NCBI GenBank assembly: GCA_012519385.1
Contig: JAAYQI010000114.1
Location: forward strand, 1 to 47,980
Direction: 5' to 3'
DNA: 47,980 nucleotides
Origin: Candidatus Epulonipiscium sp.
GTDB taxonomy: Bacteria; Bacillota; Clostridia; Lachnospirales; Anaerotignaceae
Position 1 is the first letter of the stretch. Each line of letters begins with the position of its first letter. Below, one piece after another: positions 24,541-41,381 of this stretch. A program made the translations under genes and the position numbers. The notes beneath the pieces are model-generated. The model did no database searches. It was given only the letters and a program-made list of their open reading frames with translations, and was not told where the DNA came from.

Positions 24541-25641
24541 GTGGGATATGTGGAAAGCGACTTAGTTCGGATTGCAAAAAGAGAAAACAATACAAAAAGA
24601 GGATATTTAGTGGTAGATCCGCTTCAAGGAAAACATATTCCGGTGTCTCCTTCCAAAGCTTTAAAATTGTTTAGTGATCTTGCAGATGTATTCAGAAAAT
24701 CCTATCAAAATGAAAGATTATTGTTGATTGGTTTTGCTGAAACTGCGACAGCTATTGGAGCTCAGGTGGCAATTTCTATAGGTGCAAAATATATTCAAAC
24801 AACAAGAGAAATGATACCTGATGTAGAGTATCTGTTTTTTTCGGAAGAACACAGCCATGCAACCGAGCAAAAGCTAATAAAGGATGATATCGATTCAATT
24901 ATGGATGATACTGATAGGATTATTTTTATTGAAGATGAAGTTACGACTGGTAAAACAATTTTAAATATAATCTCAATTTTGGAAAAAAAGTATCCGAGCA
25001 AAATGAAATATTCTGTAGCCTCTATTCTTAATGGCATGAGCGAGGAGCACCTTAATCTGTATGAGAAAAAAGGAATTATGCTACATTATTTAGTAAAAAC
25101 CAATCATAGTACCTATGATGAGCATGCTAATCAGTTCAAAGGAGATGGTCATTACTATGAAATGTACGAAAAAAACACAATTAATTATTCTCTCCTAAAA
25201 GTTAATGGTGCTATAAACCCTAGAAGATTGGTAAATTCCAAAGATTATTGGAAAGCATGTCAAAAATTATGGAATGAAATACATAATGTAATTGGACATA
25301 TAAGTGAGCAAAGTATCTTGGTGATAGGTACGGAAGAAACCATGTTTCCAGCATTATTTATCGGGACCGAGTTAGAAAAGCTAGGGAATAAAGTTCTAAG
25401 TCATTCAACAACAAGGAGTCCAATCGCTGTTAGTTTAGAAAATGAATATCCGCTACATACAAGATATCAGTTAAAGAGTCTGTATGATGCCCAAAGAAAA
25501 ACTTTTATTTATGATATTGGTAAATATGATAATGTACTCATTGTGACGGATGCACCAGAGTCAGAAACTGAAGGACTAGAAACATTGATAAATGCTGTAG
25601 CAGTTAAAAATAATACTATTACATTAATAAGGTGGTGCTAA
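24541..25641 (+). CDS. Ter-associated phosphoribosyltransferase (PRTase_2) with C-terminal TRSP domain
   Basis: PRPP-loop-like IIFIEDEVTTGKTILNII; TRSP-type STTRSPIAVS; GTG start. Confidence 0.85.
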   Translation: MGYVESDLVRIAKRENNTKRGYLVVDPLQGKHIPVSPSKALKLFSDLADVFRKSYQNERLLLIGFAETATAIGAQVAISIGAKYIQTTREMIPDVEYLFFSEEHSHATEQKLIKDDIDSIMDDTDRIIFIEDEVTTGKTILNIISILEKKYPSKMKYSVASILNGMSEEHLNLYEKKGIMLHYLVKTNHSTYDEHANQFKGDGHYYEMYEKNTINYSLLKVNGAINPRRLVNSKDYWKACQKLWNEIHNVIGHISEQSILVIGTEETMFPALFIGTELEKLGNKVLSHSTTRSPIAVSLENEYPLHTRYQLKSLYDAQRKTFIYDIGKYDNVLIVTDAPESETEGLETLINAVAVKNNTITLIRWC

Positions 25642-25642
25642 T

Positions 25643-26692
25643 TTGAGAAGCTCATATTCTAAAGATGATGTGATTCTTCTATTAAAAGATATAACCGGAT
25701 TGGTTGAACCTCTGCCAACAGAGGAAAGAGAAAAGCAGATTCAGGCAGGAAGGCATTATTGTGAAATGCTTCCTCTTGAATATGTGCCTACAGAAAAATA
25801 TATGCAGGTATATAATTCTGCTTTGAAGAATTATGCAGGCGTAGTTGCAAATGCAGTTGGTAACTTGGCAGACAAAGTTGTTACTCAAAGAGGCCAAAAT
25901 ATAGTTTTGGTCTCCCTTGCCAGAGCTGGAATTCCTGTAGGAATTTTATTAAAACGCTATATTAAGTTTAAATATGGATATAATGTTCCCCATTATTCTA
26001 TTTCCATTATTAGGGAAAGAGGAATAGATGATAATGCTATGAATTATCTGCTAGAACGGTATCAAGCTAAACAATTACTTTTTGTGGATGGTTGGATAGG
26101 TAAAGGTGCAATATTAAACGAGTTAAAAAAAAATCTTGCTGCTTATCATGGTGTATCATCGGATATCGCAGTTATTGCTGATCCAGCAAATGTTACTGAA
26201 TTGTGTGGTACTCATGAGGATATATTGATTCCTAGTTCTTGTCTTAATAGTACAGTATCAGGCTTGGTTAGTAGAACATTTCTTAGGGAAGATATTATTG
26301 GAACCAAAGATTTCCATGGGGCGGTTTATTATGGCGAACTAAAGGATTCGGATCTTTCGTATCAATTTATTAATGCTATTGAAAGGCATTTTACAGAACA
26401 ATCTAGAAAAGATACTTTTGAACTCGAAGGTTTTGGAATTGATGAAGTGAGATTTTTGGCTAAAAAATATGGAATTGATGATATTCATTTAATCAAACCA
26501 GGAATAGGTGAAACAACAAGAGTGTTGCTACGTAGGGTTCCTTGGAAAGTGTTGATTGATGAAAAATACAAATACGATGCTCAGTTAGAACATTTGATTA
26601 GGTTGGCGGATGAGAAGAAAGTTCCAATAGAATATTGCTCTTTGAACCATTATAAATGCTGTGGAATAATAAAAAAATTAGCTGATGCGTAA
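25643..26692 (+). CDS. StiP-family (PRTase-like/'cysteine protease StiP') protein with C-terminal PELOTA RNA-binding domain
   Basis: LVSLARAGIPVGILLKRYIKFKYG, LLFVDGWIGKGAI; C-terminal VLLRRVPWKVLIDEKYKYDAQLEHLIRLADEKKVPIEYCSLNHYKCCGIIKKLADA; starts 2 nt after the TRSP gene ends. Confidence 0.85.
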   Translation: MRSSYSKDDVILLLKDITGLVEPLPTEEREKQIQAGRHYCEMLPLEYVPTEKYMQVYNSALKNYAGVVANAVGNLADKVVTQRGQNIVLVSLARAGIPVGILLKRYIKFKYGYNVPHYSISIIRERGIDDNAMNYLLERYQAKQLLFVDGWIGKGAILNELKKNLAAYHGVSSDIAVIADPANVTELCGTHEDILIPSSCLNSTVSGLVSRTFLREDIIGTKDFHGAVYYGELKDSDLSYQFINAIERHFTEQSRKDTFELEGFGIDEVRFLAKKYGIDDIHLIKPGIGETTRVLLRRVPWKVLIDEKYKYDAQLEHLIRLADEKKVPIEYCSLNHYKCCGIIKKLADA

Positions 26693-26741: not shown

Positions 26742-27446
26742 ATGTTATCATTTGAAACAATCAATGAACTTACCCTTAAGGTAACCTGTACAGGCAGTGA
26801 TGTTCTTTTTGTAAAAGCAGGTGCATTTATCGCTGGCGAAAATCCTGGAGGAAAAAACTACAAGTTTGAAAAGGTTATTCTTGGACCTCAGAATAATATA
26901 GGGCAAGCACTTCTCGGTCAACTGGCAAGACGTGTTACGGGGGAAAACCTTCCACTTATGAAGGTCAACTTTAATGGCGATTCTGTAACATACTATGCTA
27001 ATTATGGACAGCATGTTGTTATATATCACCTAGAACAAGGGGAAACAATTTCTGTCGAATCTGAGAACATTTTAGCTTTTACTCAAGACTGCGATTATAG
27101 CGTTAGATTTATAGGTGTGGGCGTACTTTCGCAGAGGGGTTTAGCAACTACCACTCTCACTGCAAGAGGAAGAAATGCATATGTCGCAATCCTTTCCGAT
27201 GGAAACCCTATTGTTTTAAGCAATGTTATGACTAGAGATACAATTTCAGTTGACCCTAATGCCGTAATATGTTGGATTGGTAATGGTCATTGTGACCCAC
27301 AGGTTACAGCTGATGTTTCTTGGAAAACATTCCTTGGTCAAACATCTGGTGAATCCTATCAATTCGAATGGAACGGTAGTGCTGGTGTTACTGTAATTAT
27401 TCAGCCATCTGAACATCGTGGTGGAATTAAAATCAGTATGGATTAA
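26742..27446 (+). CDS. AIM24-family protein
   Basis: VLFVKAGAFIAGENPGGKNYKFEKVI..., ESENILAFTQDCDYSVRFIGVGVLSQRGLATTTLTARGRNAYVAILSDG. Confidence 0.75.
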   Translation: MLSFETINELTLKVTCTGSDVLFVKAGAFIAGENPGGKNYKFEKVILGPQNNIGQALLGQLARRVTGENLPLMKVNFNGDSVTYYANYGQHVVIYHLEQGETISVESENILAFTQDCDYSVRFIGVGVLSQRGLATTTLTARGRNAYVAILSDGNPIVLSNVMTRDTISVDPNAVICWIGNGHCDPQVTADVSWKTFLGQTSGESYQFEWNGSAGVTVIIQPSEHRGGIKISMD

Positions 27447-27536: not shown

Positions 27537-27565
27537 AAAGCGGGGCATCATCTTTGCTCCGCTTT
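27537..27565. terminator. Bidirectional terminator between convergent Ter operons
   Basis: aaagcggggc-atcatctt-tgctccgcttt. Confidence 0.65.
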
Positions 27566-28315
27566 ACTTATTATTTCAAGGCATCTTAATAATAATGCAT
27601 CTGAAAATATCTTATTTGATTCCATTTCTTCTAGTTTAAAATCAATACAAAATTGCGATGTAAATGCAAAAGGAACTAAACCAATATCTACCGCCTTTAG
27701 CATTGAAATATCAAATTCACTATCACCAGCTGCGATTGAAAACTTAGCTCCTATATAATCCATAAATCGCTTTACAGCTCTTCCTTTATTTAATGCTTTA
27801 GGAACAATATAAACCTTTGTACCATTATGAAAGATGTCTACAAATTTTTCATCTAGTTTTCCCTTTAACTCATCAACAACATCTTCTGGCGAATCACATT
27901 TTGTGAAAACAAATAGATTTTCGATATATCTCAGTTCAAAGGTTCGCCTCGGGTCTTTATCAAGAATACGAATTCCCTTTAAGACTGTATCTTTGCTATC
28001 TCTTATTTCTTTTATGGATTCATTGTACCACCAATCAACTTTTTTGCCATTTTCTAGCAATACCCCACCATTACATACAAGTGCATATTTAAATACACCT
28101 ACACCCAAATCTATCCTCTCATATTGTTCAACTGTCCTTGTTGATGTTGGTATAACAAGAATCTGTTCTCTCAATCTCTTTAAATACGCATAAGTATCTT
28201 CTGTAATAAAAGATATCTCTCGCCCTTGATAGATTTCAACATTTCTCTTGCGAAGACCTATATCATGCTTATATGAGTATATAATTGTATTATCTAAATC
28301 TGTAAAAAATATCAT
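27548..28315 (-). CDS. Ter-associated HAD-superfamily phosphatase
   Basis: MIFFTDLDNTIIYSYKH (DxDxT motif), FSIAAGDSEFDISMLKAVDIGLVP. Confidence 0.88.
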   Translation of the reverse strand: MIFFTDLDNTIIYSYKHDIGLRKRNVEIYQGREISFITEDTYAYLKRLREQILVIPTSTRTVEQYERIDLGVGVFKYALVCNGGVLLENGKKVDWWYNESIKEIRDSKDTVLKGIRILDKDPRRTFELRYIENLFVFTKCDSPEDVVDELKGKLDEKFVDIFHNGTKVYIVPKALNKGRAVKRFMDYIGAKFSIAAGDSEFDISMLKAVDIGLVPFAFTSQFCIDFKLEEMESNKIFSDALLLRCLEIISKAEQR

Positions 28316-28396
28316 AATCCATTCTACTCCATAAAAAATGTGGTACAGCAAATATTACTGTACCATATTCTCTTCGTAATTCAAAATTTACAATTT

Positions 28397-31030
28397 TTAC
28401 TTGCGAATAATAGCCTTTCTTACCATATCAACTGGAATAATCAAAATTGCCAAAGCCATTGAAACCAATAATGCCTTAACATCAAGAGTTGTTGTACTAA
28501 ATACGCTTCCGCCAATCTCAATGATTATCGTTTGAAGAATAAAAATTGCTCCCATAACCAGCATAAAATTCTTATTCTCCCCAATATGCTCAAACAAATT
28601 AAATCTCTCGGATCTGGTATTTAAACTATTAAATATTATTGAATAGATGAAAAAAGCAAACATAAATGTCTTCTTATAAAGTTCTGGATCCGCACAATCT
28701 GCAGGTGTAACATAACTTGTAATACCTGCAATATTTTCAAGAATTAAAATAGAACCTAATGTAATAAATATCGAACTTGTTCCAATCGCTGACTTAATAT
28801 AGGTGGTAAGAATATTATCTGTTCTCTTTGCAGGTTGATCCTCCATATATCTGTTAAGAATCGGCTCACTACCAAAGGCCATAGCAGCTAATGTATCCAT
28901 AATCAAATTAATCCAAAGTATCTGCACAATGGAAAATGGCTCTGTCCATCCAAGTATTGGTGCAATTATATTCATTAACAATGTACTAATATTAACTGTA
29001 AGCTGGAAGATAAGGAATTTTCCAACTGATTTTGCCATTGTTCTACTGTTCAGAACACAGTCCTTAATAGAAGTCAAACTGTTATTAAGAATTACCACAT
29101 CTCCTGCTTCTTGAGCTACGGCAGTACTATCTCCCATAGAAAAACCAATATCTGCTTGCTTCAAAGCTGGTGCATCATTAACACCATCCCCAGTCATACC
29201 ACATACATTATCAAGCTGCTGTGATATAGTAACAAGTCTTTTCTTATCAAGGGGCTTCGCTCTACTTACAACACGAAGGTTAGGTAATTTCTCCTTCAAT
29301 TCCTCATCGGACATACGCTCAAGCTGTTCATGAGTGAGTACTACATCTGTTGCTTCGTTCTTAAGAATACCTGTTTCTTTTGCAATTGCAACCGCTGTTT
29401 CTTCGGCATCACCCGTAACCATTACCACCTGAATACCGGCAGAATTAAGAATTTTAACAGTCTCAACAGCATCTGCTCGAACATTATCTCTTAAACAAAG
29501 AACCGCCAATAATACTGTCTTATCATTTGCAATCTTAACAACAGATAATAGTTTCATTGTACGTTTTGCCTGTGCAATCATCTGTTCTTGAACAGCCTTT
29601 TTATCCGCAGAAGTAAACTCTCTTTCTTCTCCATCTGGCAGAGCATAATGCGTAACCTGATCAATAATATTTTCTGTTGCACCTTTCCAATATACAATGC
29701 CATTTTTAAGACTTGCAGTTGCACACTTCTTCTCTGAATCAAATCCACTTATTTTGTCTACTCTATCTGGATCATTCTTAGAATCATCATATCCATTTTG
29801 AAGAGCATATGTAAGAAGTGCTCTATCCATATTATTACTACCGATAGATTTTCCTTCCGATATTTTTGCTAAGTTATTGAGGGTTATTGCTTCGATAAAC
29901 TCTCTACTTTGAATGTTATCTACAATTTTACCTGCGCCAGTAATAAATTCAACCAATGAGAGGTTTCCCTGAGTAAGTGTCCCTGTTTTATCACTGAACA
30001 GAATATTCATATATGCAGAATCAGAGAAAGCAGCTTTGTGACTTACAAGAATATTCTTTTTATACATTGATTCAGTATTCATGGACTGAACCAAGCTATT
30101 CATCATTGGTAAACCTTCTGGAACAGCCATAATTACAATGGAAGCCATAAGCATTACCGCTTCAGCAACTAAAAGAATAACGGAAACAGCTGAAGCTCCA
30201 CTTGTTGCTCTCGTCAAAGAAAGAACCACATGAAGTGCACCTGCGATTGTTGCGGCAGATACACCAAGCTTACCAATTCCAGCAGCTACTACTTCAAGCT
30301 TAAGACTAGAAGTATCTTTTCTTTCCTCTTCCTCGTTATTGTCGGTAAGGGATTTATTAATCTTTCCAAGCTCTGATGCATCACCAATTACGGTTGCAAT
30401 CATATATGCTTCTCCAGCTGTTACTACAGAGCCCATAAATACCTTTGATGTGGAAGAATAATCTGTAGATTCCGCTTCATCCATTGTTAAAGTAGCAGAT
30501 TTATTTTCATCTCTAGATTCACCATTTAATACAGCTTGTGAAACTTTAATATTCCCCTCAAAAACCAAGCCATCAACCGGAATCTTATCCCCTGCCTGCA
30601 CAAGAATGGTATCGCCCTTAACTATTTCACTCGTAAGAATATTTACAAGTTTTCCATTACGCATTACTTTAGCAAATGTCTTGCTATATTCCTCCTGAAG
30701 GGCTTCGCTTCTAGTTGTATTTCTGTACTCAGATAATGTACTAAATCCCGTTGCTAAAGCTATTGCCAACAATATACTTATGATTTCTATAACATCATTT
30801 TCTCCAGTAAGAGCAGGAACAAATACTCCAAGAACTGCTAGCACAATCTTCAAAACAAGTGCAGCACACAACACCTTAATCCAGATATCATCAAAGGCGC
30901 CGATAAACATTGACCATAATGACTCTGTTTCTTTTTTAGCAAGTTCATTTGTTCCATATTTCGCCTTGCTATCATTGACTTGTAAGTCGGACAGACCCCG
31001 CATCAATTCTTCTTTGCTCATACTACTCAT
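28397..31030 (-). CDS. P-type cation ATPase, Ca2+-transporting (PMCA/SERCA-like) family
   Basis: FSDKTGTLTQG phosphorylation motif, MTGDGVNDAPALKQADIGFSMG, PEGLP TM4 motif. Confidence 0.93.
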   Translation of the reverse strand: MSSMSKEELMRGLSDLQVNDSKAKYGTNELAKKETESLWSMFIGAFDDIWIKVLCAALVLKIVLAVLGVFVPALTGENDVIEIISILLAIALATGFSTLSEYRNTTRSEALQEEYSKTFAKVMRNGKLVNILTSEIVKGDTILVQAGDKIPVDGLVFEGNIKVSQAVLNGESRDENKSATLTMDEAESTDYSSTSKVFMGSVVTAGEAYMIATVIGDASELGKINKSLTDNNEEEERKDTSSLKLEVVAAGIGKLGVSAATIAGALHVVLSLTRATSGASAVSVILLVAEAVMLMASIVIMAVPEGLPMMNSLVQSMNTESMYKKNILVSHKAAFSDSAYMNILFSDKTGTLTQGNLSLVEFITGAGKIVDNIQSREFIEAITLNNLAKISEGKSIGSNNMDRALLTYALQNGYDDSKNDPDRVDKISGFDSEKKCATASLKNGIVYWKGATENIIDQVTHYALPDGEEREFTSADKKAVQEQMIAQAKRTMKLLSVVKIANDKTVLLAVLCLRDNVRADAVETVKILNSAGIQVVMVTGDAEETAVAIAKETGILKNEATDVVLTHEQLERMSDEELKEKLPNLRVVSRAKPLDKKRLVTISQQLDNVCGMTGDGVNDAPALKQADIGFSMGDSTAVAQEAGDVVILNNSLTSIKDCVLNSRTMAKSVGKFLIFQLTVNISTLLMNIIAPILGWTEPFSIVQILWINLIMDTLAAMAFGSEPILNRYMEDQPAKRTDNILTTYIKSAIGTSSIFITLGSILILENIAGITSYVTPADCADPELYKKTFMFAFFIYSIIFNSLNTRSERFNLFEHIGENKNFMLVMGAIFILQTIIIEIGGSVFSTTTLDVKALLVSMALAILIIPVDMVRKAIIRK

Positions 31031-31119: not shown

Positions 31120-31731
31120 TTAAGTATAACGTACACAAAGTTCGCCAAGTCCAGGATCTTTTGTACCCTGACCGATAGCACTAAATTTCCATTCGCCGTT
31201 ATGTCTATATACTTCACCAAAAATCATTGCTGTCATGCCAGAATAATTCTCTGTTAAATTGTATTTACACATTTCATTGTTGTTTCTAGCATCTACAAGT
31301 CTAATAAATGCATTCTGAATCATTCCGAAATGCTGTCTTCTCTGTACTGCTTGATAAATATTTACAACAATCACTATCTTATCATACTCAGCTGGAACCT
31401 TTGAAAGGTCAATAAGAATCTGCTCATCATCACCATCGCCTGCACCTGTAAGGTTATCTCCCATATGCTGTACAGTTTTTGACCTATGTGTCAGATTACC
31501 AAAATAAACTAAATCTTCTTTATCAACAAGCTTTCCATTTTTAAGCATAATTGCTGAAGCATCACAATCTATGGCTTGTCCACCGCCACCGCCACCGAAC
31601 AATGCACCCAACAGTCTGCCCCCACCAGTCGTAGGTGCCTCATCCCAGCCAAGCCCTACTACAATCTTAGCAAGACCTGCGTTATCTTTTGACAGACTTA
31701 CTTTCTGTCCTTTTTGTAAACTAATTGACAT
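31120..31731 (-). CDS. TerD-family protein, Gly-rich-insert subtype
   Basis: [50 protein letters not shown]...[23 protein letters not shown]. Confidence 0.93.
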   Translation of the reverse strand: MSISLQKGQKVSLSKDNAGLAKIVVGLGWDEAPTTGGGRLLGALFGGGGGGQAIDCDASAIMLKNGKLVDKEDLVYFGNLTHRSKTVQHMGDNLTGAGDGDDEQILIDLSKVPAEYDKIVIVVNIYQAVQRRQHFGMIQNAFIRLVDARNNNEMCKYNLTENYSGMTAMIFGEVYRHNGEWKFSAIGQGTKDPGLGELCVRYT

Positions 31732-31914
31732 TCTTTGTCCTCCTCGCGAAAATTATCTTCTTCCAGCTTTCCATCTAAGTCCCCAATTTGAAAGCCTTAT
31801 CAAGCCAGATAAGAATCCCTGTTTTACTGGTCATTCATTCTAATTATAATTGACTAAAAATTCTCTAAAATCTGCAGGGGATTTCTTTTGGAAATTTACT
31901 TTTATGTATTCTCA

Positions 31915-32496
31915 CTATTCAACTTCTATTCCATAGTTGTTGCACAACGCAGCTAGGCCACCCTGATAACCGCTTCCGATGGCATTGAATTTCCACTCAT
32001 TACCATTTTTATACAATTCACCAAAAACTGCCGCTGTTTCGATAGAAAAGTCTTCTCCTAAATCATATCTGAGAAGTTCTTCTCCTGTAGACTCATTATA
32101 AATTCGAACGAATGCATTGTTGACCTGCCCAAAATTCTGATGTCTTGCCTCAGCTTCATAAATTGTAACTGTAAATGCAATCTTAGTAATATTAGCTGGA
32201 ACCTTTGTAAAGTCAATCTTAATCTGCTCGTCATCACCTTCGCCTACACCTGTAAGATTATCTCCTAAGTGCTGAACACTTCCTGACGCATGAATAAGAT
32301 TTCCAAAAAATATAAAATCGTTCTGGTTTGAAACTTTACCTGTGTCTGTAAGTAAAAATGCCGCAGCATCAAGGTCAAAGTCTCCGCCTGTATCAAAACC
32401 ATTTACATCCCATCCAAGTCCAACTACCACATTGGTTAGTCCAGGATTTCCTTTGGTCAGACTAACCTTCTGACCCTTCTGTAAACTAACTGGCAT
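31915..32496 (-). CDS. TerD-family protein
   Basis: [46 protein letters not shown]...[18 protein letters not shown]. Confidence 0.96.
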
Positions 32497-32509
32497 TAAC
32501 TTACACCTC

Positions 32510-33091
32510 CTATGCTACCTCAATTCCAAAATGTCCGCAAAGTGCAGCAAGCCCACCCTGGAATCCACTTCCAATGGCATTGAACTTCCATTCACCATTA
32601 TTTCTATACAATTCACCAACAACTATTGCTGTTTCGATTGAGAAATCTTCTCCAAGATCGTATCTAATAAGCTCTGAACCGTTTGAGTTATCTACCAAAC
32701 GAATAAATGCATTTGAAACCTGACCAAAGTTCTGACGTCTTGCTTCGGCATCGTAGATTGTAACAGTAAATACAATCTTTTCGATATTTGCAGGAACCTT
32801 TGACAGGTCAATAAGAATCTGCTCATCATCACCATCCCCATCGCCAGTAAGGTTGTCTCCCTGATGCACTACTGCCTGGCTTGAGTGAGAAAGATTTCCA
32901 TAGAATACAAATTCCTTATCTGTTGGGCATTTGCCATCTGCTCCGAGCATAAATGCTGCAGCATCAAGGTCAAAATCTGAGCCTGAATCGAATGCATTAA
33001 CATCCCATCCAAGTCCAACCATCACATTCTTGAGTCCAGGATTTCCTTTTGTTAAGTCTACCTTCTGTCCTTTTGATAAATTAATTGGCAT
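32510..33091 (-). CDS. TerD-family protein
   Basis: [46 protein letters not shown]...[18 protein letters not shown]. Confidence 0.96.
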
Positions 33092-33153: not shown

Positions 33154-34305
33154 CTACTTTTTTGCTGGAGGCATATGATACTGCTTTTGGAAGTCTTCCT
33201 TAATTGCCTCAAGTCTTTTCTGATCTTCAATACGTTTCTTTCTGGCATCCTGTTCAATTCTTTTTGTTTCTTCGATACCATTTGTAATTGTTCTCCAAGT
33301 GGTTTCAAGTGTTTCAATCTGAATTGAGCTTCCTGATGCAAGTTTAGCTGTCTGCTTAGTAATTTCCATGTTATTCTGAGCATTCTTGATAAGCATCTCA
33401 TTTGTCTTCTTGTCAAGTGCAGCCATCGACTCAGCCTGAAGCTTTTGTCTTTTAAGCATAATAGCCTGGGCAAGAGCCTGCTTGAATACAGGAAGAGTAA
33501 TAATGAACGCAGAGTTAATCTTTCTAACCAAATTGTAGTTGCTAAATTCCATAGTTTTAATCATTGGAATTGACTGTATAGCTATATTTTCAGCGGTTCT
33601 AAGATCTTGGGTACGCTGCTCCATCATCATAAGTGCCTGATTAAGACTAGTAAGTTCAAATTGAATTGACTGATCTCCAGTTGATTCCATATCCTGCTGT
33701 CTCTGTGCAATGTAGTCCTCAATTTCCTTACATGCCTGTTCACCAGCAAGAATATATTTTACTAACTCATGATAATAATTCACATTAGCCTCAAACATCA
33801 TTGCAAGCTTACGATTTGACTGTTTAATCTCCGATTCATAGCCCTTTAACTGAACATAAATCTTATCAATTTCTTCCCCCATGGTATGATATTTTGCAAG
33901 AATCTTATCTAACTGCTTTTTCAAATTTCCAAAAAGCTTACCCAAAAGAGATGGATTCTCCTTTATCTCATCAATATCAAACTGATCCATAATCTTAGCA
34001 AGAATTTTTAACATCTCACTTGTTTCATCAAGCTGAGACATATTCATGCTATTTAAAACTACATCCGATGCCTTAGAAATCTCTTCAGCAACTTCAGATC
34101 CAAATGTTACAATTGTATCAAGGTTATGAACCTCAATAGTACTTACAATACGATCAACTTCTTCTGAATTGACAAGCTCCTGATTCATCTTCTGTCTGTC
34201 AGCAACGATATCGTACTGCTCAACTACAGCAATCTCATTTTTTGTGTCTGCCATAGTTGTTGTTGGTGTCGCTATATTCGTTGGTTTACTAAAATCAAGT
34301 CCCAT
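33154..34305 (-). CDS. Toxic anion resistance protein, TelA/YceH-like
   Basis: MGLDFSKPTNIATPTT..., helical body LFGNLKKQLDKILAKYHTMGEEIDKIYVQLKGYE; QALAQAIMLKRQKLQAESMAALDKKTNEMLIKNAQ. Confidence 0.92.
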   Translation of the reverse strand: MGLDFSKPTNIATPTTTMADTKNEIAVVEQYDIVADRQKMNQELVNSEEVDRIVSTIEVHNLDTIVTFGSEVAEEISKASDVVLNSMNMSQLDETSEMLKILAKIMDQFDIDEIKENPSLLGKLFGNLKKQLDKILAKYHTMGEEIDKIYVQLKGYESEIKQSNRKLAMMFEANVNYYHELVKYILAGEQACKEIEDYIAQRQQDMESTGDQSIQFELTSLNQALMMMEQRTQDLRTAENIAIQSIPMIKTMEFSNYNLVRKINSAFIITLPVFKQALAQAIMLKRQKLQAESMAALDKKTNEMLIKNAQNNMEITKQTAKLASGSSIQIETLETTWRTITNGIEETKRIEQDARKKRIEDQKRLEAIKEDFQKQYHMPPAKK

Positions 34306-36583
34306 ACTTATTACCTCTCTTAAATATTTTATCATGCCAAGAAGGACGTGCATTATTTAATGAAAGACGCTTCAGGTCAGGAACTTGTAGATCATATTTG
34401 TATTCCCCTATCTGATGTTCTTCCATCAGTTTCTTGTTAAAATGCTTTTCTATACACTGATAACCAGTTGGAACAAAGAAAATTACATCAAACCCAATAA
34501 GGTTTAAAAAAGCCGTTAAAATTGAATCCTCCAAAGATATGATTGTTTCCGTAGTATTTATATAAATCAATTTTGGATTCTTTTTTGTGAAATCAAACTT
34601 TTGAATCATCCTTACAATATCTTTCGGCAAATTCAAAACTTGTGCAATCACGGTATATTCTGTTCCATTCTCACCAATTCCTCGAATTAGCTTCTGGTCA
34701 ATCAGTACTTGAAGCTTATCCAAAATGAAATCTTGCATATCCTCGCGTAATATACTATAAGGATAATTCGGATGATTTTTAATTTTATTCCGTTGAAGCT
34801 TTCCATTTTTAAAGAATTCTGCGGAAAAAGATTTCATTGGATTTGGAGCCGTAGATTTAATATATGGTGCACTTGTTATTACGATTGTGTCATTTGTAAT
34901 CAGTTCCTTGATGTATACCCAATACGGAGCTATGAGTCCATCTTTGACTCCTGATATTTTTGCAAATACTACTGGTATATTAACTACACCATCCACTGTA
35001 CTAAAGCTCGGTCTATACTTCAATTCTTGATCCCAAAGAATCTTGATTTCTTCATACATCGTTTGAAGGCTAATTACATTTGCCTTTCCATATTGCTGAA
35101 TTCTATACATTCCTGTATCCTGATACATTAATGTATCAAGTTCCCGTTCTGCATGGTAAGCAACTGTTCCTATCTTCACTTGAGAGGACTCTTCAGGATA
35201 TTTTGTTATCGACAAGCTCTCTGAATAATTCACTTCATAAAGCAACTTGTCCTCAAGGCAACATTTTTTATTTAGATTAGGACATAGAATCAACACATCT
35301 ACTGGCAATCTTGCAAGAAAACTCAAGAACATAGCCTCATTATCATTCTTACAACCACCCATATATATGAAACATCCTATATCCGGCATTTTCCAGTTTG
35401 CTAACAAATCTGGAAGATATCTTTTAAACCAACACAATAAATATATCGCCTTATTGGTCAGTTTATTAAGGTTGCTTCCTTCTTTTTTTTGTTCCGCAAG
35501 AATTGCATCCACAAAACTTTTATGTACAATACGCTTTAATTCAATATTAGAAATAAAGTTGAGATTTTTTGCCAAATCAAGAATCATCTGATCGTGCTTT
35601 GTATAATTACCTCTCTTTATCCCAGCTATCTCTTCAGGCGTAGGCTTTGCAATTTCTTCGTTTACAATAACTAGTTTACGTTTTGAATTTCTTATTTCCT
35701 GTTGAAGTAGAAAAAGCTCATTCGTATAAGTAAGTTTATCTTGCACTCCATTCATTCTGCAAAAACAATTATAAAAGAACTTAGAATCATTTCCTCGAAT
35801 CGTTACACTTTCTCGGACGTCATCTAACCCCTTTCCTTTTATCCATGCATTTGTGCAATTATTGACTGTAGGTTTTGTTCCATACAATCTCTCATTATTC
35901 ATATCATTTTGGAGTTCATCTCTTATTGCCTTTATGCAAAATCCTTCAGGCCATGCCTGCATACCCTTCATCTGAAGGTTGTCAGACAAATACGAGTTGG
36001 CATCTACTTTAAGATAGCCCTCATCCCCGTGATATTGAAGTAAAACTACATCACATCCTGCCTTCGAAAGAATAGATATTAGCATCAATTCATATTTACT
36101 AATATCCCCCTCATAAAGCATTTTAGGGATGTTATTTTCACCTAGCTGAGTTACTATTCTCTCAAATTTGTAATATAGCCAACACATGAATTTAATATAT
36201 GCATTTTTTAGCATATTCTCTGTTTTCCCACTCTTTTGCATAGAATCCAGAGAATCATATATCGACGCAGCAACATATTGTCGCTGATAATCGTTCATTC
36301 TTGGAAGCCATTTCTTCAGACTCATAGTTATGAACCCAATATTCATTTGAAAATCCATACCCATTATTTCTGAATAATAAGCCAATTTTTTTTCGTCAGG
36401 ATTTTGTATCTTCCCTTCAATTACAACCCCGGTTCGCCTGGCTACATCATAGTATTTTTTTAAAAAATCACCTATTTCAGCCGAATATCCGTTGATACGA
36501 TAAAAATAAACTCCTTTGTCTTGCCTAGAATTCAGCTCAACAAAATAATCACCAAGGTTCCGAATCTTTTTGTGTTCTAACAT
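34295..36583 (-). CDS. YceG-like protein (Ter 'biosynthetic module' component, YceG_bac)
   Basis: 762-aa protein immediately upstream of and overlapping the telA/yceH-like gene, as in B. subtilis yceG-yceH; sequence KGVYFYRINGYSAEIGDFL..., DANSYLSDNLQMKGMQAWPEGF. Confidence 0.8.
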   Translation of the reverse strand: MLEHKKIRNLGDYFVELNSRQDKGVYFYRINGYSAEIGDFLKKYYDVARRTGVVIEGKIQNPDEKKLAYYSEIMGMDFQMNIGFITMSLKKWLPRMNDYQRQYVAASIYDSLDSMQKSGKTENMLKNAYIKFMCWLYYKFERIVTQLGENNIPKMLYEGDISKYELMLISILSKAGCDVVLLQYHGDEGYLKVDANSYLSDNLQMKGMQAWPEGFCIKAIRDELQNDMNNERLYGTKPTVNNCTNAWIKGKGLDDVRESVTIRGNDSKFFYNCFCRMNGVQDKLTYTNELFLLQQEIRNSKRKLVIVNEEIAKPTPEEIAGIKRGNYTKHDQMILDLAKNLNFISNIELKRIVHKSFVDAILAEQKKEGSNLNKLTNKAIYLLCWFKRYLPDLLANWKMPDIGCFIYMGGCKNDNEAMFLSFLARLPVDVLILCPNLNKKCCLEDKLLYEVNYSESLSITKYPEESSQVKIGTVAYHAERELDTLMYQDTGMYRIQQYGKANVISLQTMYEEIKILWDQELKYRPSFSTVDGVVNIPVVFAKISGVKDGLIAPYWVYIKELITNDTIVITSAPYIKSTAPNPMKSFSAEFFKNGKLQRNKIKNHPNYPYSILREDMQDFILDKLQVLIDQKLIRGIGENGTEYTVIAQVLNLPKDIVRMIQKFDFTKKNPKLIYINTTETIISLEDSILTAFLNLIGFDVIFFVPTGYQCIEKHFNKKLMEEHQIGEYKYDLQVPDLKRLSLNNARPSWHDKIFKRGNKYGT

Positions 36584-36598
36584 AGAGCATTCTCACCT

Positions 36599-37204
36599 TC
36601 AATATCTATTCATTTTATCTTTGTTCATTATAAAGCCTAAGCTTGAGCCAACAGCGCCTCCTATGATATGTGTCAAATTAGAAACATTATCTTTGATAAA
36701 TATTCCATCATAAACCTGTTGTCCTATATATATACAAGCTACAAGCAAAAAGGTTACAGGGATTTTACCCTCTTTAAAACTTGTAATTGATGATAACAAA
36801 ATAAGAGCAAACACAACGCCACTTGCACCTAAAAGTTGTAAATGTGGAAAGAAAATAAAATTGATAAGACCAGTAATCAATGCTGTCGCAAGAATTACAA
36901 ACAGTATATTAGATGACCCGTATTTTTCTTCAAGCAACGGACCAACCACCAATATCATCATTATATTCCCTATAAAGTGCTCCCATCCTGCATGCCCTAA
37001 CACATGGCCAAAAAACCTTACATATGTCAATGGACTTAGCAACGATGACCTATATACACTAAAACAAGCATTCGTTGCAAAACCGCCTGTAACTATATCA
37101 AGTAGCAACACCGCAAAACACGCTATTGTAAATCCTAGAATAACAGGGGAGTTAAAAGTTAATTGTAACTTTTTACTATTATAATTCATATATATCCCCC
37201 TCAA
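36599..37204 (-). CDS. Rhomboid-family intramembrane serine protease
   Basis: HAGWEHFIGNIMMILVVGPLLEEKYG, LGASGVVFALILLSS (GxSG), THIIGGAVGSSLGF (catalytic-type His). Confidence 0.9.
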   Translation of the reverse strand: MRGIYMNYNSKKLQLTFNSPVILGFTIACFAVLLLDIVTGGFATNACFSVYRSSLLSPLTYVRFFGHVLGHAGWEHFIGNIMMILVVGPLLEEKYGSSNILFVILATALITGLINFIFFPHLQLLGASGVVFALILLSSITSFKEGKIPVTFLLVACIYIGQQVYDGIFIKDNVSNLTHIIGGAVGSSLGFIMNKDKMNRY

Positions 37205-37316: not shown

Positions 37317-38795
37317 TTAATAAAACCCTTTGGCAAACATCAAAATATTTTCATACCCTACTGCTAAGTTGATATTTTGACCATTATCCAGCCCTGCAGT
37401 ACTGATTCCTATTACCTCTCCCTGCATATTAAGTACTGCTCCTCCTGAGCTTCCTGGAGATATCGGTGCAGTAAATTGTATCATATCCTCATCTCTAATA
37501 GTTCTAAATCCAGAAATGATACCATCAGAAACCGAATTAAATAAACCAAGAGGGCTGCCAATTGCTACTACTTTCTGACCTCGAACAAGTTTTTGTTTCC
37601 CGTTATATATTGGTAGCGGCTGTAGTTTTCTTTTTATCCTGATTATTGCCATGTCAAGATTCGTATTATATTTTATAACTTCATCTGTAACATAAACTTC
37701 CTCATCATCCTCTATTCTAACGGAAAAATAACAACCACCATTTATAACATGGAAGTTCGTTAATATGTAACCATCTTTTCCTATCATAATCCCAGAACCA
37801 GTCCCTTCCACATTTCCATTTGCGTCATGCACCTCAATCATCACTATGGAAGATGCCAGTTGAGCTAACTCTTCAAAAGATTTTTCTTTGGCTTGACTTC
37901 TATTGCTTCCTTCTGTGCTAGCAGGAGTTGTAGGAATGTTTGTCCTTTGTGGGATAGCTATTTCAGATTGTGTTATTGCCATTGTCGAATTGGTTTGAGC
38001 CTTCTTCTTTGAACGGTTATGTTCTGGAATTATAACTCGCACTGGCTCCCATGGATTTTCTTTTTTTGTTATCGTGCTTACTTTATTTTTCTCTTTAGGT
38101 GGGGTATATCTCACGAATTCAGGCAATGTCAAATCTTCAAATTCCCCCAATTTAAATGCACTTGACAATCCTTTCAACTCTTCGCTAACAGATACATCCT
38201 CTTTCATTTCAAGAAGGAGTACATCGCATCCTATTTGAGTTAAAAAATAGAAAAATAAATATTCTTGTTCCTTCTTAATATTCTCTGCAACTATTTTTAT
38301 ACTTCTGCTTTCATTCCATTTACACAAAATTTCCTTCGCAATTCCATCTAACCAAAATAGCATTTTGGTAGACAAATTACGTATCATAGATTCAGATACT
38401 CCCAGTTTACATTTTTTATACACATTCGAAATATTCTGCAATGCATGAGCAACCATATTACTCAAATCTTCGGACATCATAACTGACTTTAAAGAGATGT
38501 TCTTTCCAGCCTTGAGCCAATTATCATATTCGCCAGAATAAAATAAAATATCTTTTTCTTCGGAAAGTTTCGGTAACCTTTTTAATCTAAAATAATCCAT
38601 CTTCCCATCATATGTATCTTTTCCTGCTTTTTCATCTATCTTTTTAATGACATCAATCATTGAGGAAGACACACCTAATGCTCTGACGAAATATACATCT
38701 CTTAATGAATTATTGCATCCACCTCGTATCCCCATAAAAGCTTCTAGCGAATTAATCCCCATCACATTATACCTATATGTAATCAAATTCCTCAT
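37317..38795 (-). CDS. YceG-like N-terminal domain fused to a trypsin-like (HtrA/DegP, S1C) protease domain
   Basis: C-terminal GSGIMIGKDGYILTNFHVING (His), YNTNLDMAIIRIKR (Asp), APISPGSSGGAVLNMQGEVIGIS (Ser); N-terminal VYFVRALGVSSSMIDVIKK and EYLFFYFLTQIGCDVLLLEMKED resemble YceG. Confidence 0.85.
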   Translation of the reverse strand: MRNLITYRYNVMGINSLEAFMGIRGGCNNSLRDVYFVRALGVSSSMIDVIKKIDEKAGKDTYDGKMDYFRLKRLPKLSEEKDILFYSGEYDNWLKAGKNISLKSVMMSEDLSNMVAHALQNISNVYKKCKLGVSESMIRNLSTKMLFWLDGIAKEILCKWNESRSIKIVAENIKKEQEYLFFYFLTQIGCDVLLLEMKEDVSVSEELKGLSSAFKLGEFEDLTLPEFVRYTPPKEKNKVSTITKKENPWEPVRVIIPEHNRSKKKAQTNSTMAITQSEIAIPQRTNIPTTPASTEGSNRSQAKEKSFEELAQLASSIVMIEVHDANGNVEGTGSGIMIGKDGYILTNFHVINGGCYFSVRIEDDEEVYVTDEVIKYNTNLDMAIIRIKRKLQPLPIYNGKQKLVRGQKVVAIGSPLGLFNSVSDGIISGFRTIRDEDMIQFTAPISPGSSGGAVLNMQGEVIGISTAGLDNGQNINLAVGYENILMFAKGFY

Positions 38796-38947
38796 AATGC
38801 ACCACCTTTTTACAATTTCCCACTTTATATTCTATCACATCTTTTTTTCGTTTACCATTTTTAATTGCATGTGTTATACTATTTCAGTGTGTCCTTTTTA
38901 CACACAGTATTAAGGGGAAAGTTAAGGGGAAAGAGGGAACGTATATC

Positions 38948-39910
38948 TTGAAAAATAATATTATGTACTACAGTGTAGGTGCATTACTATACTGCCCTGC
39001 CAACCAAAAAAATATAGTGGACTCCATTATTTCCGAGAAATTGGGGACAAAGTTTTCGTTAGCTTTATGCCTAGAAGACACTATCAATGATAACTTTGTG
39101 GAAGAAGCCGAAAAAATACTAGCTGAATCACTCTATCAAATCTATATAAATTACCAAACACAACCATTTTATTTGCCCAAAATATTTGTAAGAGTAAGAA
39201 ATTCAGAGCAAATTATACGGCTCACAAAAACCTTTGGAGATGTAATTGAAATTGTCACTGGCTTTATAATACCAAAGTTCTCAACAGACAATGCTTCAGA
39301 ATATATCCAGGCAATCATTAAGGCGAATGAAATTATTTCAAAACCAATATACATGATGCCAATATATGAAAACTCCTCCATCATTAATCTTAGAAATCGT
39401 ATTGACATACTGTACAGCTTAAAAGATTCTTTATCCGTAGTGGAAGACCGTGTACTTAATATACGTGTTGGCGGTAATGATTTGTGTCATATGTTTGGCT
39501 TTAGAAGAAATTCCGATGAATCCATACATACAATTAAACCTATATCCAATATTTTCTCAGATATTATCACTATATACGGTATGGATTATGTGATTTCAGG
39601 ACCAGTATGGGAATACTATTTGGGAGATAATTGGGAAAGCGGCCTAAGACAAGAAATTAAAGATGATAAATTATGTGGCTTTATTGGAAAAGCCGTCATC
39701 CATCCTAATCAGATTGAAATAATAAATGACGCCTACAAGGTTTCACAAAACGATTTTAATGATGCTCAGGCTATTTTAAATTGGAATAAGAACTCAAACG
39801 TATTTGTCTCAGGAAATATAACTAAAGAACGCATGAACGAATACAAAACCCATAATAATTGGGCTCAGCAAACCCTATTCTTAGCAGAAGCATTTGGCAT
39901 CAAAGCATAA
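38948..39910 (+). CDS. HpcH/HpaI aldolase / citrate lyase beta (CitE)-like protein, Ter-associated
   Basis: YSVGALLYCPANQKNIVDSIISEKLGTKFSLALCLEDTI, IYMMPIYENSSIINLRNRI, LNIRVGGNDLCHMFGFRR, GKAVIHPNQIEIINDAY; TTG start. Confidence 0.88.
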   Translation: MKNNIMYYSVGALLYCPANQKNIVDSIISEKLGTKFSLALCLEDTINDNFVEEAEKILAESLYQIYINYQTQPFYLPKIFVRVRNSEQIIRLTKTFGDVIEIVTGFIIPKFSTDNASEYIQAIIKANEIISKPIYMMPIYENSSIINLRNRIDILYSLKDSLSVVEDRVLNIRVGGNDLCHMFGFRRNSDESIHTIKPISNIFSDIITIYGMDYVISGPVWEYYLGDNWESGLRQEIKDDKLCGFIGKAVIHPNQIEIINDAYKVSQNDFNDAQAILNWNKNSNVFVSGNITKERMNEYKTHNNWAQQTLFLAEAFGIKA

Positions 39911-39947: not shown

Positions 39948-40511
39948 TTACTTTAAAATTTTATCGATTTTTTCAGAATACTCATCTTTCGAAATGATTC
40001 CCATCTGAAGCTGCATTTCAATCTTTCTAAGCTTATCATAATTATCAAGCTTTTTTTGAATTACTGCTAACTTTTCGTCATATTCCTCCTGAGTAATAAT
40101 ATCTATTTCAAGTGCTTTGTTTAATTTCGCCTTTTCTTCTTCAAATTCATCCTGAGCTTTCTTTTGTAAACGAAGCTCATCTTCTCTTTTTGCATTCAGC
40201 TCTTTCTCCGCAATAGCTGTTTCAATTTCTGCAAGTTTATCAAGATCTGGCTTCATTGTCTCCAAAATATCAGACACATCAAATGCCTCTCCTCCATCTG
40301 CATTAGCCATATATTGTACATAACGTTTTCCAATTTCAGCATATGAATCTTGCAATCGCTTTTCAATAACTGATTTTTGTATCTTCAACCCTGCTAGTTC
40401 ACTTTGCTCTTTAGATGTAGAGTAAATACTAGAACCTAAAGACTTTGCAGAGTCAAAAACACTTTCACCCACTTCTTTTACAGCTTTTGTTGTTTTCTCA
40501 AACATATTCAT
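39948..40511 (-). CDS. Coiled-coil protein with two C-terminal SHOCT-like repeats
   Basis: LNKALEIDIITQEEYDEKLAVIQKKL and LRKIEMQLQMGIISKDEYSEKIDKILK. Confidence 0.7.
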   Translation of the reverse strand: MNMFEKTTKAVKEVGESVFDSAKSLGSSIYSTSKEQSELAGLKIQKSVIEKRLQDSYAEIGKRYVQYMANADGGEAFDVSDILETMKPDLDKLAEIETAIAEKELNAKREDELRLQKKAQDEFEEEKAKLNKALEIDIITQEEYDEKLAVIQKKLDNYDKLRKIEMQLQMGIISKDEYSEKIDKILK

Positions 40512-40592: not shown

Positions 40593-41381
40593 TCAAACTA
40601 CCTGTACACCGTATAACTCACATAGTCCAGCAAGATCTTTTGCAACACCATTTCCTATAGCATTAAATTTCCATATACCATTATGCTGATATAATTCACC
40701 AATCATCATAGATGTAACATTTGCGTAGTATTCATCCATCTTGAAACTAACAAGCTCTCTATCGGAAGCATCCATAATACGGATATAAGCATCTTTGAGC
40801 ATACTAAAGTTTAGATGCTTTTCTAAAGCTTCATTGATAGTAAGAACAAATACAATTTTGGCAACCGAAGGATTCAATTTCGTAAAATCAACAGATACAA
40901 TTTCTCTGTCGTTGCCTTCATCTATGGAGAAAATAGTACTTCCATCTGGGCTAGATTCTTGTCCGTAAAACACAAACCACGAATCACCTATCACCTTACC
41001 AGTAGAACTGAGAAGGAATGCAGAAACATCCACATCACAATTTGCATTGGTAACGTTCCACCCAAGACATGCCTTTATACTAGATAGCTTTCCATTATTT
41101 TCTAAAGGAACTTTTTGTCCCTTTTGAATGCTATTTATTAATTGCGGAACATTTTTGAACACGGACATTGAAGCTGACATTGACGGCGTAGCTAGGGTAG
41201 CAGAATTATTTTCCGTGTTATTGGCATGAGTAGTAGGCATCCCACTAGAATTTGATTTTGATTCATTATTAATGGATAATATATTTCTCGTATTATTTGC
41301 ACCTCGAACTTTTTTTTGATTAATTGTAAGTATTGTTTGCTTGGTCAGTGGTGCAGATGATTTCATAGGAACGCTTATCAT
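40593..41381 (-). CDS. TerD-family protein with about 90-aa low-complexity N-terminal extension
   Basis: N-terminal S/T/N-rich segment, then QLINSIQKGQKVPLE...CLGWNVTNANCDVDVSAFLLSSTGK...IDEGNDREIVSVDFTKLNP. Confidence 0.9.
   Translation of the reverse strand: MISVPMKSSAPLTKQTILTINQKKVRGANNTRNILSINNESKSNSSGMPTTHANNTENNSATLATPSMSASMSVFKNVPQLINSIQKGQKVPLENNGKLSSIKACLGWNVTNANCDVDVSAFLLSSTGKVIGDSWFVFYGQESSPDGSTIFSIDEGNDREIVSVDFTKLNPSVAKIVFVLTINEALEKHLNFSMLKDAYIRIMDASDRELVSFKMDEYYANVTSMMIGELYQHNGIWKFNAIGNGVAKDLAGLCELYGVQVV

Follow-up and report, generated by a model that had tools for sequence, protein, structure and literature searches.

Proteases of the bacterial HtrA/DegP family (MEROPS S1C) usually carry an export signal or a membrane anchor, and usually a PDZ domain. 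In Hachiman, AVAST, Lamassu and DRT, sensor-fused proteases have an intracellular trypsin fold linked to a core component of a stress or immune system (PMC12799240). Fusions of trypsin with shared adaptor domains are common in conflict systems, among them those with VMAP, vWA and EAD proteins (PMC7159879). The main text of that study leaves YceG, TerY and tellurite unmentioned and names TerD once, as a nucleotide-binding domain. YceG is used here in the sense of Bacillus subtilis YceG (PF14266) and not of Escherichia coli YceG/MltG. YceG proteins have two or three copies of PF14266, and no biochemical function for them was found reported in the literature searched. In B. anthracis the published phenotype of yceGH concerns reactive oxygen (PMC6813211); in B. 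subtilis the stress sigma factors sigma-W, sigma-B and sigma-M control yceC-yceH (PMC3498285). The role of Ter islands beyond tellurite resistance is a question of long standing.

The window, the whole stretch of 47,980 nucleotides that was analyzed, contains a Ter island in which one gene joins a single YceG domain to an HtrA-type serine protease. This conserved YceG-HtrA fusion, present in Ter islands of many Clostridia-like genomes, is a new instance of the known theme of sensor-coupled proteases seen in Hachiman, AVAST and Lamassu. No mention of a YceG-trypsin fusion was found in the literature searched, though an earlier description may exist, for example in the main Ter review. The gene and its parts are as follows.

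37317-38795, minus strand: fusion gene, 492 aa, with YceG_bac domain, linker and HtrA-type serine protease (open reading frame and Pfam)
38802-38809, 6 nt upstream of the fusion-gene ATG: ribosome-binding-site-like AAAGGTGG (sequence reading)
38067-38696, minus strand: YceG_bac domain (PF14266), residues 34-243 (Pfam, hhalign, AF2 model)
37878-38066, minus strand: low-complexity linker, about residues 244-306 (orthologue alignment)
37404-37799, minus strand: Trypsin_2/HtrA (S1C) protease core, residues 333-464 (Pfam, NCBIfam, solved-chain matches)
37749-37751, minus strand: catalytic His349 in TNFHV (invariant, 22/22)
37653-37655, minus strand: catalytic Asp381 in NLDMAI (invariant, 22/22)
37446-37448, minus strand: catalytic Ser450 in GSSGG (invariant, 22/22)

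A preliminary description, made from the letters of the sequence, had placed the gene at 37317-38795. These coordinates are correct, and the strand, which it did not give, is minus. The motifs that it quoted are all present in the translations: TNFHV, NLDMAI, SPGSSGGA, VYFVRALGVSSSMIDVIKK and YLFFYFLTQIGCDVLLLEMKEDV in the fusion, and VYFYRINGYSAEIGDFLKK and LMLISILSKAGCDVVLLQYHGDE in YceG. It had read the resemblance of the last four as a domain shared with YceG, a reading that a lack of structural similarity would contradict, and had described the C-terminal half as a trypsin-like S1C protease with an apparently complete triad and no recognisable PDZ domain or signal peptide, suggested to be cytoplasmic. 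The analyses below bear out both parts. Its further suggestion, that the shared domain recruits the protease to the Ter complex or to whatever YceG binds or makes, with proteolysis as an effector or regulatory output of the Ter stress response, is kept here as a hypothesis, and its interpretation as a whole is supported in part.

The N-terminal domain is a true member of the YceG family. Residues 34-243 match YceG_bac in Pfam (E=1.6e-10, 41.4 bits against a cut-off of 25), and both PF14266 (E<=0.001) and PF13365 are matched by all 12 fusion orthologues scanned. Aligned with hhalign, the fusion N-domains resemble YceG repeat 1 (E=2e-24) and repeat 2 (E=4e-26) and are barely related to repeat 3. 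Chance similarity of motifs is ruled out by the Pfam and hhalign matches and by negative controls, in which the N-domain profile gave no signal (E 0.05-0.7) against the TelA, rhomboid, C-C lyase, StiP, HAD and TerD proteins of the islands. An AlphaFold (AF2) model built with 50 homologues is confident (pLDDT 92.9), and its order of strands and helices is that of YceG repeat 2 when the AF2 models are compared by element order. In the aligned fusions that have the domain, residues N140, K144, W148, K167, K175, E178 and D191 are conserved (20-21 of 21 sequences); N140, W148, E178 and D191 also occur in the majority of copies of YceG repeats 1 and 2. The fusion differs from YceG in carrying one copy of the 210-residue domain, on a protease. 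In a tree with the YceG repeats, 11 of 12 fusion N-domains group together (support 0.99), and the tree does not clearly place them with respect to repeats 1 and 2. A Foldseek search of the N-domain against solved and viral structures gave no convincing relative and no pointer to a bound ligand. Many P-loop NTPase folds ranked high in both Foldseek libraries, yet with E values of at least 1.8e-3 and TM scores of ~0.3, and kinship with them was rejected. The model of the three-domain YceG reached a TM of only ~0.1.

The linker that follows differs in length between fusion orthologues. Residues 333-464 match Trypsin_2 in Pfam (E=1.6e-27, 97.5 bits). The best NCBIfam match is TIGR02037 (HtrA/DegP) at 120.9 bits against a curated cut-off of 416.2, and no curated HtrA model is matched above its cut-off. 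Among solved chains, the closest matches are the S1C-type domain of RsgI9 and Deg proteases from plants and bacteria. The residues His349, Asp381 and Ser450, with the GSSG around the serine, are unchanged in all 22 aligned proteins, one of them a clade member without a YceG domain, and on the strength of this triad the protease is predicted to be active. It shares with HtrA/DegP the protease core, the His-Asp-Ser triad and the GxSGG oxyanion motif, and differs in its sub-cut-off score, in having no PDZ domain, signal peptide or membrane anchor, and in the added YceG_bac domain. Pfam found no PDZ family in the fusion, which stops ~30 residues past the protease core. Hydropathy over a 19-residue window peaks at 1.38, at residue 179, and does not exceed 0.87 at the N-terminus. 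None of the fusions has a hydrophobic N-terminus or a convincing transmembrane segment by this measure, unlike five related HtrA-like control proteins, in which a hydrophobic stretch lies close to the N-terminus. The protease is therefore probably cytoplasmic, the most straightforward interpretation of these data. The source genome also encodes separate HtrA-like proteins, in a 370-aa frame on contig C226 and a 460-aa frame on contig C208. In a tree with 17 other HtrAs, the protease domains of the fusions separate as a single clade (support 0.99). Together with the grouping of the N-domains, this makes a single origin of the fusion likely. In one genus (L087:12938-14638; L162:9242-10237) ~110 additional residues extend the protease at its C-terminus; in one species there the YceG domain has been lost altogether.

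The preliminary description had also set the gene within a Ter island, and the surrounding genes agree.

36599-37204, minus strand: rhomboid intramembrane protease, next gene, same direction as the fusion (PF01694, 75.8 bits)
34295-36583, minus strand: YceG, three PF14266 repeats (Pfam, AF2 model)
33154-34353, minus strand: TelA (PF05816)
31120-33091, minus strand: three TerD-like genes (sequence reading; orthologues in related islands)
28397-31030, minus strand: P-type (Ca2+-type) ATPase (sequence reading)
27548-28351, minus strand: HAD phosphatase after the P-type ATPase (sequence reading and HAD matches)
26742-27446, plus strand: AIM24-family gene beside StiP
24541-26692, plus strand: PRTase_2-TRSP and StiP-PELOTA genes of the Ter biosynthetic module (PF15609, PF12500, PF11202, PF15608)
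38948-39910, plus strand, divergent from the fusion: C-C_Bond_Lyase of the Ter biosynthetic module (PF15617, 309.6 bits)
39948-40511, minus strand: small protein with a C-terminal SHOCT domain, adjoining a TerD gene
40593-41381, minus strand: TerD protein with an N-terminal low-complexity extension of ~80 residues

The rhomboid, which lies between the fusion and yceG, frequently precedes yceG in related Ter islands, whether or not these have the fusion (e.g., L102-L105, L110). It gives islands of this type a second protease, one of the membrane. Homologues of the AIM24 gene occur in some other YceG islands (L113, L116), and a homologue of the SHOCT protein lies near the fusion in L006 (5654-6403). 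The TerD protein at 40593-41381, with its extension, is a possible substrate of an island protease. Proteins of ~400-480 aa that combine a TerD-like domain with unassigned sequence are encoded near YceG elsewhere (L112:5243-6682, L120:5507-6916, L109:11388-12581, L119:1575-2957) and are possible further Ter fusions.

A scan of GTDB genomes gave two fusions, and surveys of the family, order, class and phylum of the window brought the count to 23 genomes from several families of one phylum. Since nearly all reading frames are uninterrupted across these genomes, the fusion is neither an assembly artefact, which the preliminary description had named as grounds for discarding it, nor a pseudogene. 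That description had also proposed a survey of Ter neighborhoods for the same fusion; in 18 of 23 genomes (the window and 17 of 22 others) it adjoins Ter genes. About ten copies directly precede (rhomboid-)yceG-telA-terD on the same strand, and the remaining Ter-linked copies are arranged otherwise. The gene is often beside PRTase, StiP and C-C lyase genes. Within the family of the window, the fusion is present in 7 of 18 genomes with YceG vs 0 of 40 without (Fisher p=1e-4, with related genomes not independent).

Five copies are found at a distance from Ter genes (G014, G702, G210, G1044 and G048). The genomes G014, G702 and G210 do have a Ter or YceG locus, but carry the fusion at another place. 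The N-domain of the G1044 copy looks truncated. In G048, a 97% complete genome, the fusion is the sole PF14266 protein, and TelA and TerD are still present. G483, of the same genus as G048, encodes a member of the protease clade without a YceG domain, in a genome without any PF14266. Because of the five copies away from Ter genes, and of G048, which has no other YceG, YceG cannot be an obligatory or only partner. The apparent truncation in G1044 and the loss in G483 indicate that the N-domain can be dispensable. TelA or TerD is present in every fusion genome checked for them, so TelA, TerD or a ligand remain candidate partners. This co-occurrence is consistent with docking, but both proteins are too common for it to be a real test.

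The fusion suggests a proteolytic arm in this stress system. In the reading that we prefer, with a probability of roughly 45%, a cytoplasmic, PDZ-less HtrA protease is attached by its YceG domain to an assembly of YceG, TelA and TerD and is activated there by clustering or by a ligand. The YceG domain would be a docking and sensing module, joined to the protease by a flexible linker, and would hold the protease either at the assembly itself or at a ligand bound by YceG domains. Clustering or ligand binding under stress would switch the protease on, and it would then cut a specific intracellular target, which may be an effector to activate or parts of the assembly to remove. The closest precedent for the clustering logic, not for the sequence, is the HamA-protease of Hachiman, which turned toxic once a leucine zipper replaced its sensor domain (PMC12799240). 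Counting against docking are the copies away from Ter genes, the G048 genome without another YceG, the loss or truncation of the N-domain in G483 and G1044, and the fit of the protease to ordinary HtrA profiles, which is better than to defence protease profiles. A wider proposal, held tentatively, is that a proteolytic arm, dedicated and regulated, belongs to Ter/YceG-TelA islands. In it, a shared YceG adaptor would recruit a cytoplasmic HtrA, silent until then, to the Ter assembly once this is activated, in parallel to the sensor-fused proteases of Hachiman and AVAST but with a separate origin, out of HtrA. If true, Ter would join the systems that use sensor-coupled proteolysis within the bacterial cell. 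The fusion gives a concrete handle on Ter islands and makes the question of their role testable, through the ligand of the domain, the target of the protease and the effect of a Ser-to-Ala change.

The conserved polar residues N140, K144, K167, K175, E178 and D191 of the N-domain, several of them common to YceG repeats 1 and 2, favor an account in which this domain is an allosteric sensor for a metabolite or metal made or sensed by the Ter system and gates the protease without touching YceG. A possible ligand is the nucleoside-like compound that the Ter biosynthetic genes are proposed to make, and the frequent position of the fusion beside PRTase, StiP and C-C lyase genes fits such a sensor. 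It would also explain the orphan copies more easily, including the one in a genome without YceG. However, no Foldseek match points to a binding site, and we regard gating without YceG contact as an unlikely, if plausible, function. A further account starts from the protease, whose closest profiles are DegP/HtrA (120.9 bits). Here the protein would be a quality-control HtrA that clears damaged Ter or other cytoplasmic proteins in oxidative or metal stress, with the YceG domain a mere substrate-selecting adaptor in place of PDZ. The link of B. anthracis yceGH to defence against reactive oxygen (PMC6813211) and the sigma-W, sigma-B and sigma-M control of B. subtilis yceC-yceH (PMC3498285) speak for it. 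The source genome has its separate HtrA-like proteins of 370 and 460 aa, though, and the linkage to Ter genes suggests a dedicated role; general housekeeping of this kind seems rather improbable.

Least probable is an anti-phage or abortive function, in which the protease, once infection is sensed by the Ter assembly, switches on a toxic pro-enzyme in the manner of the Hachiman, AVAST and Lamassu nuclease-protease pairs; we judge it very unlikely. The protease domain has weak PADLOC matches to RT-Protease_XI (2e-18), LmuA (1e-5) and HamA (5e-4), and sensor-fused trypsins recur in conflict systems (PMC7159879; PMC12799240). In those pairs the protease is N-terminal, whereas in the fusion it is C-terminal. 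The MBL-fold nuclease that defines the pairs does not adjoin the fusion gene: Pfam found none among its window neighbors (rhomboid, YceG, C-C lyase, SHOCT and TerD), and none was found among ten scanned neighbors of other fusion copies. Because HtrA models match better than defence models and the MBL nuclease is absent, the fusion is not classed with the Hachiman, AVAST and Lamassu pairs. Compared with the trypsin-fused VMAP, vWA and EAD proteins (PMC7159879), it likewise joins trypsin to a domain common to other members of its system; its adaptor is YceG_bac and its partner system Ter/YceG/TelA. An Exo_endo_phos nuclease lies near two fusion copies (L160, L161). These belong to one genus only, a tRNA-editing gene intervenes in one of them, and the proximity was judged incidental.

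The whole fusion was not found in the viral contigs or plasmids searched, which counts against an anti-phage function, and spread of the gene on phages or plasmids was rejected. YceG matches in phage records come from unannotated fecal 'Bacteriophage sp.' records. One of these, the unverified 'Bacteriophage sp.' scaffold L165 (MT836648.1) from human feces, carries an ordinary Ter island with PRTase, StiP, C-C lyase, YceG, TelA, TerD and ATPase genes and without fusion or rhomboid, and is probably bacterial DNA filed as phage.
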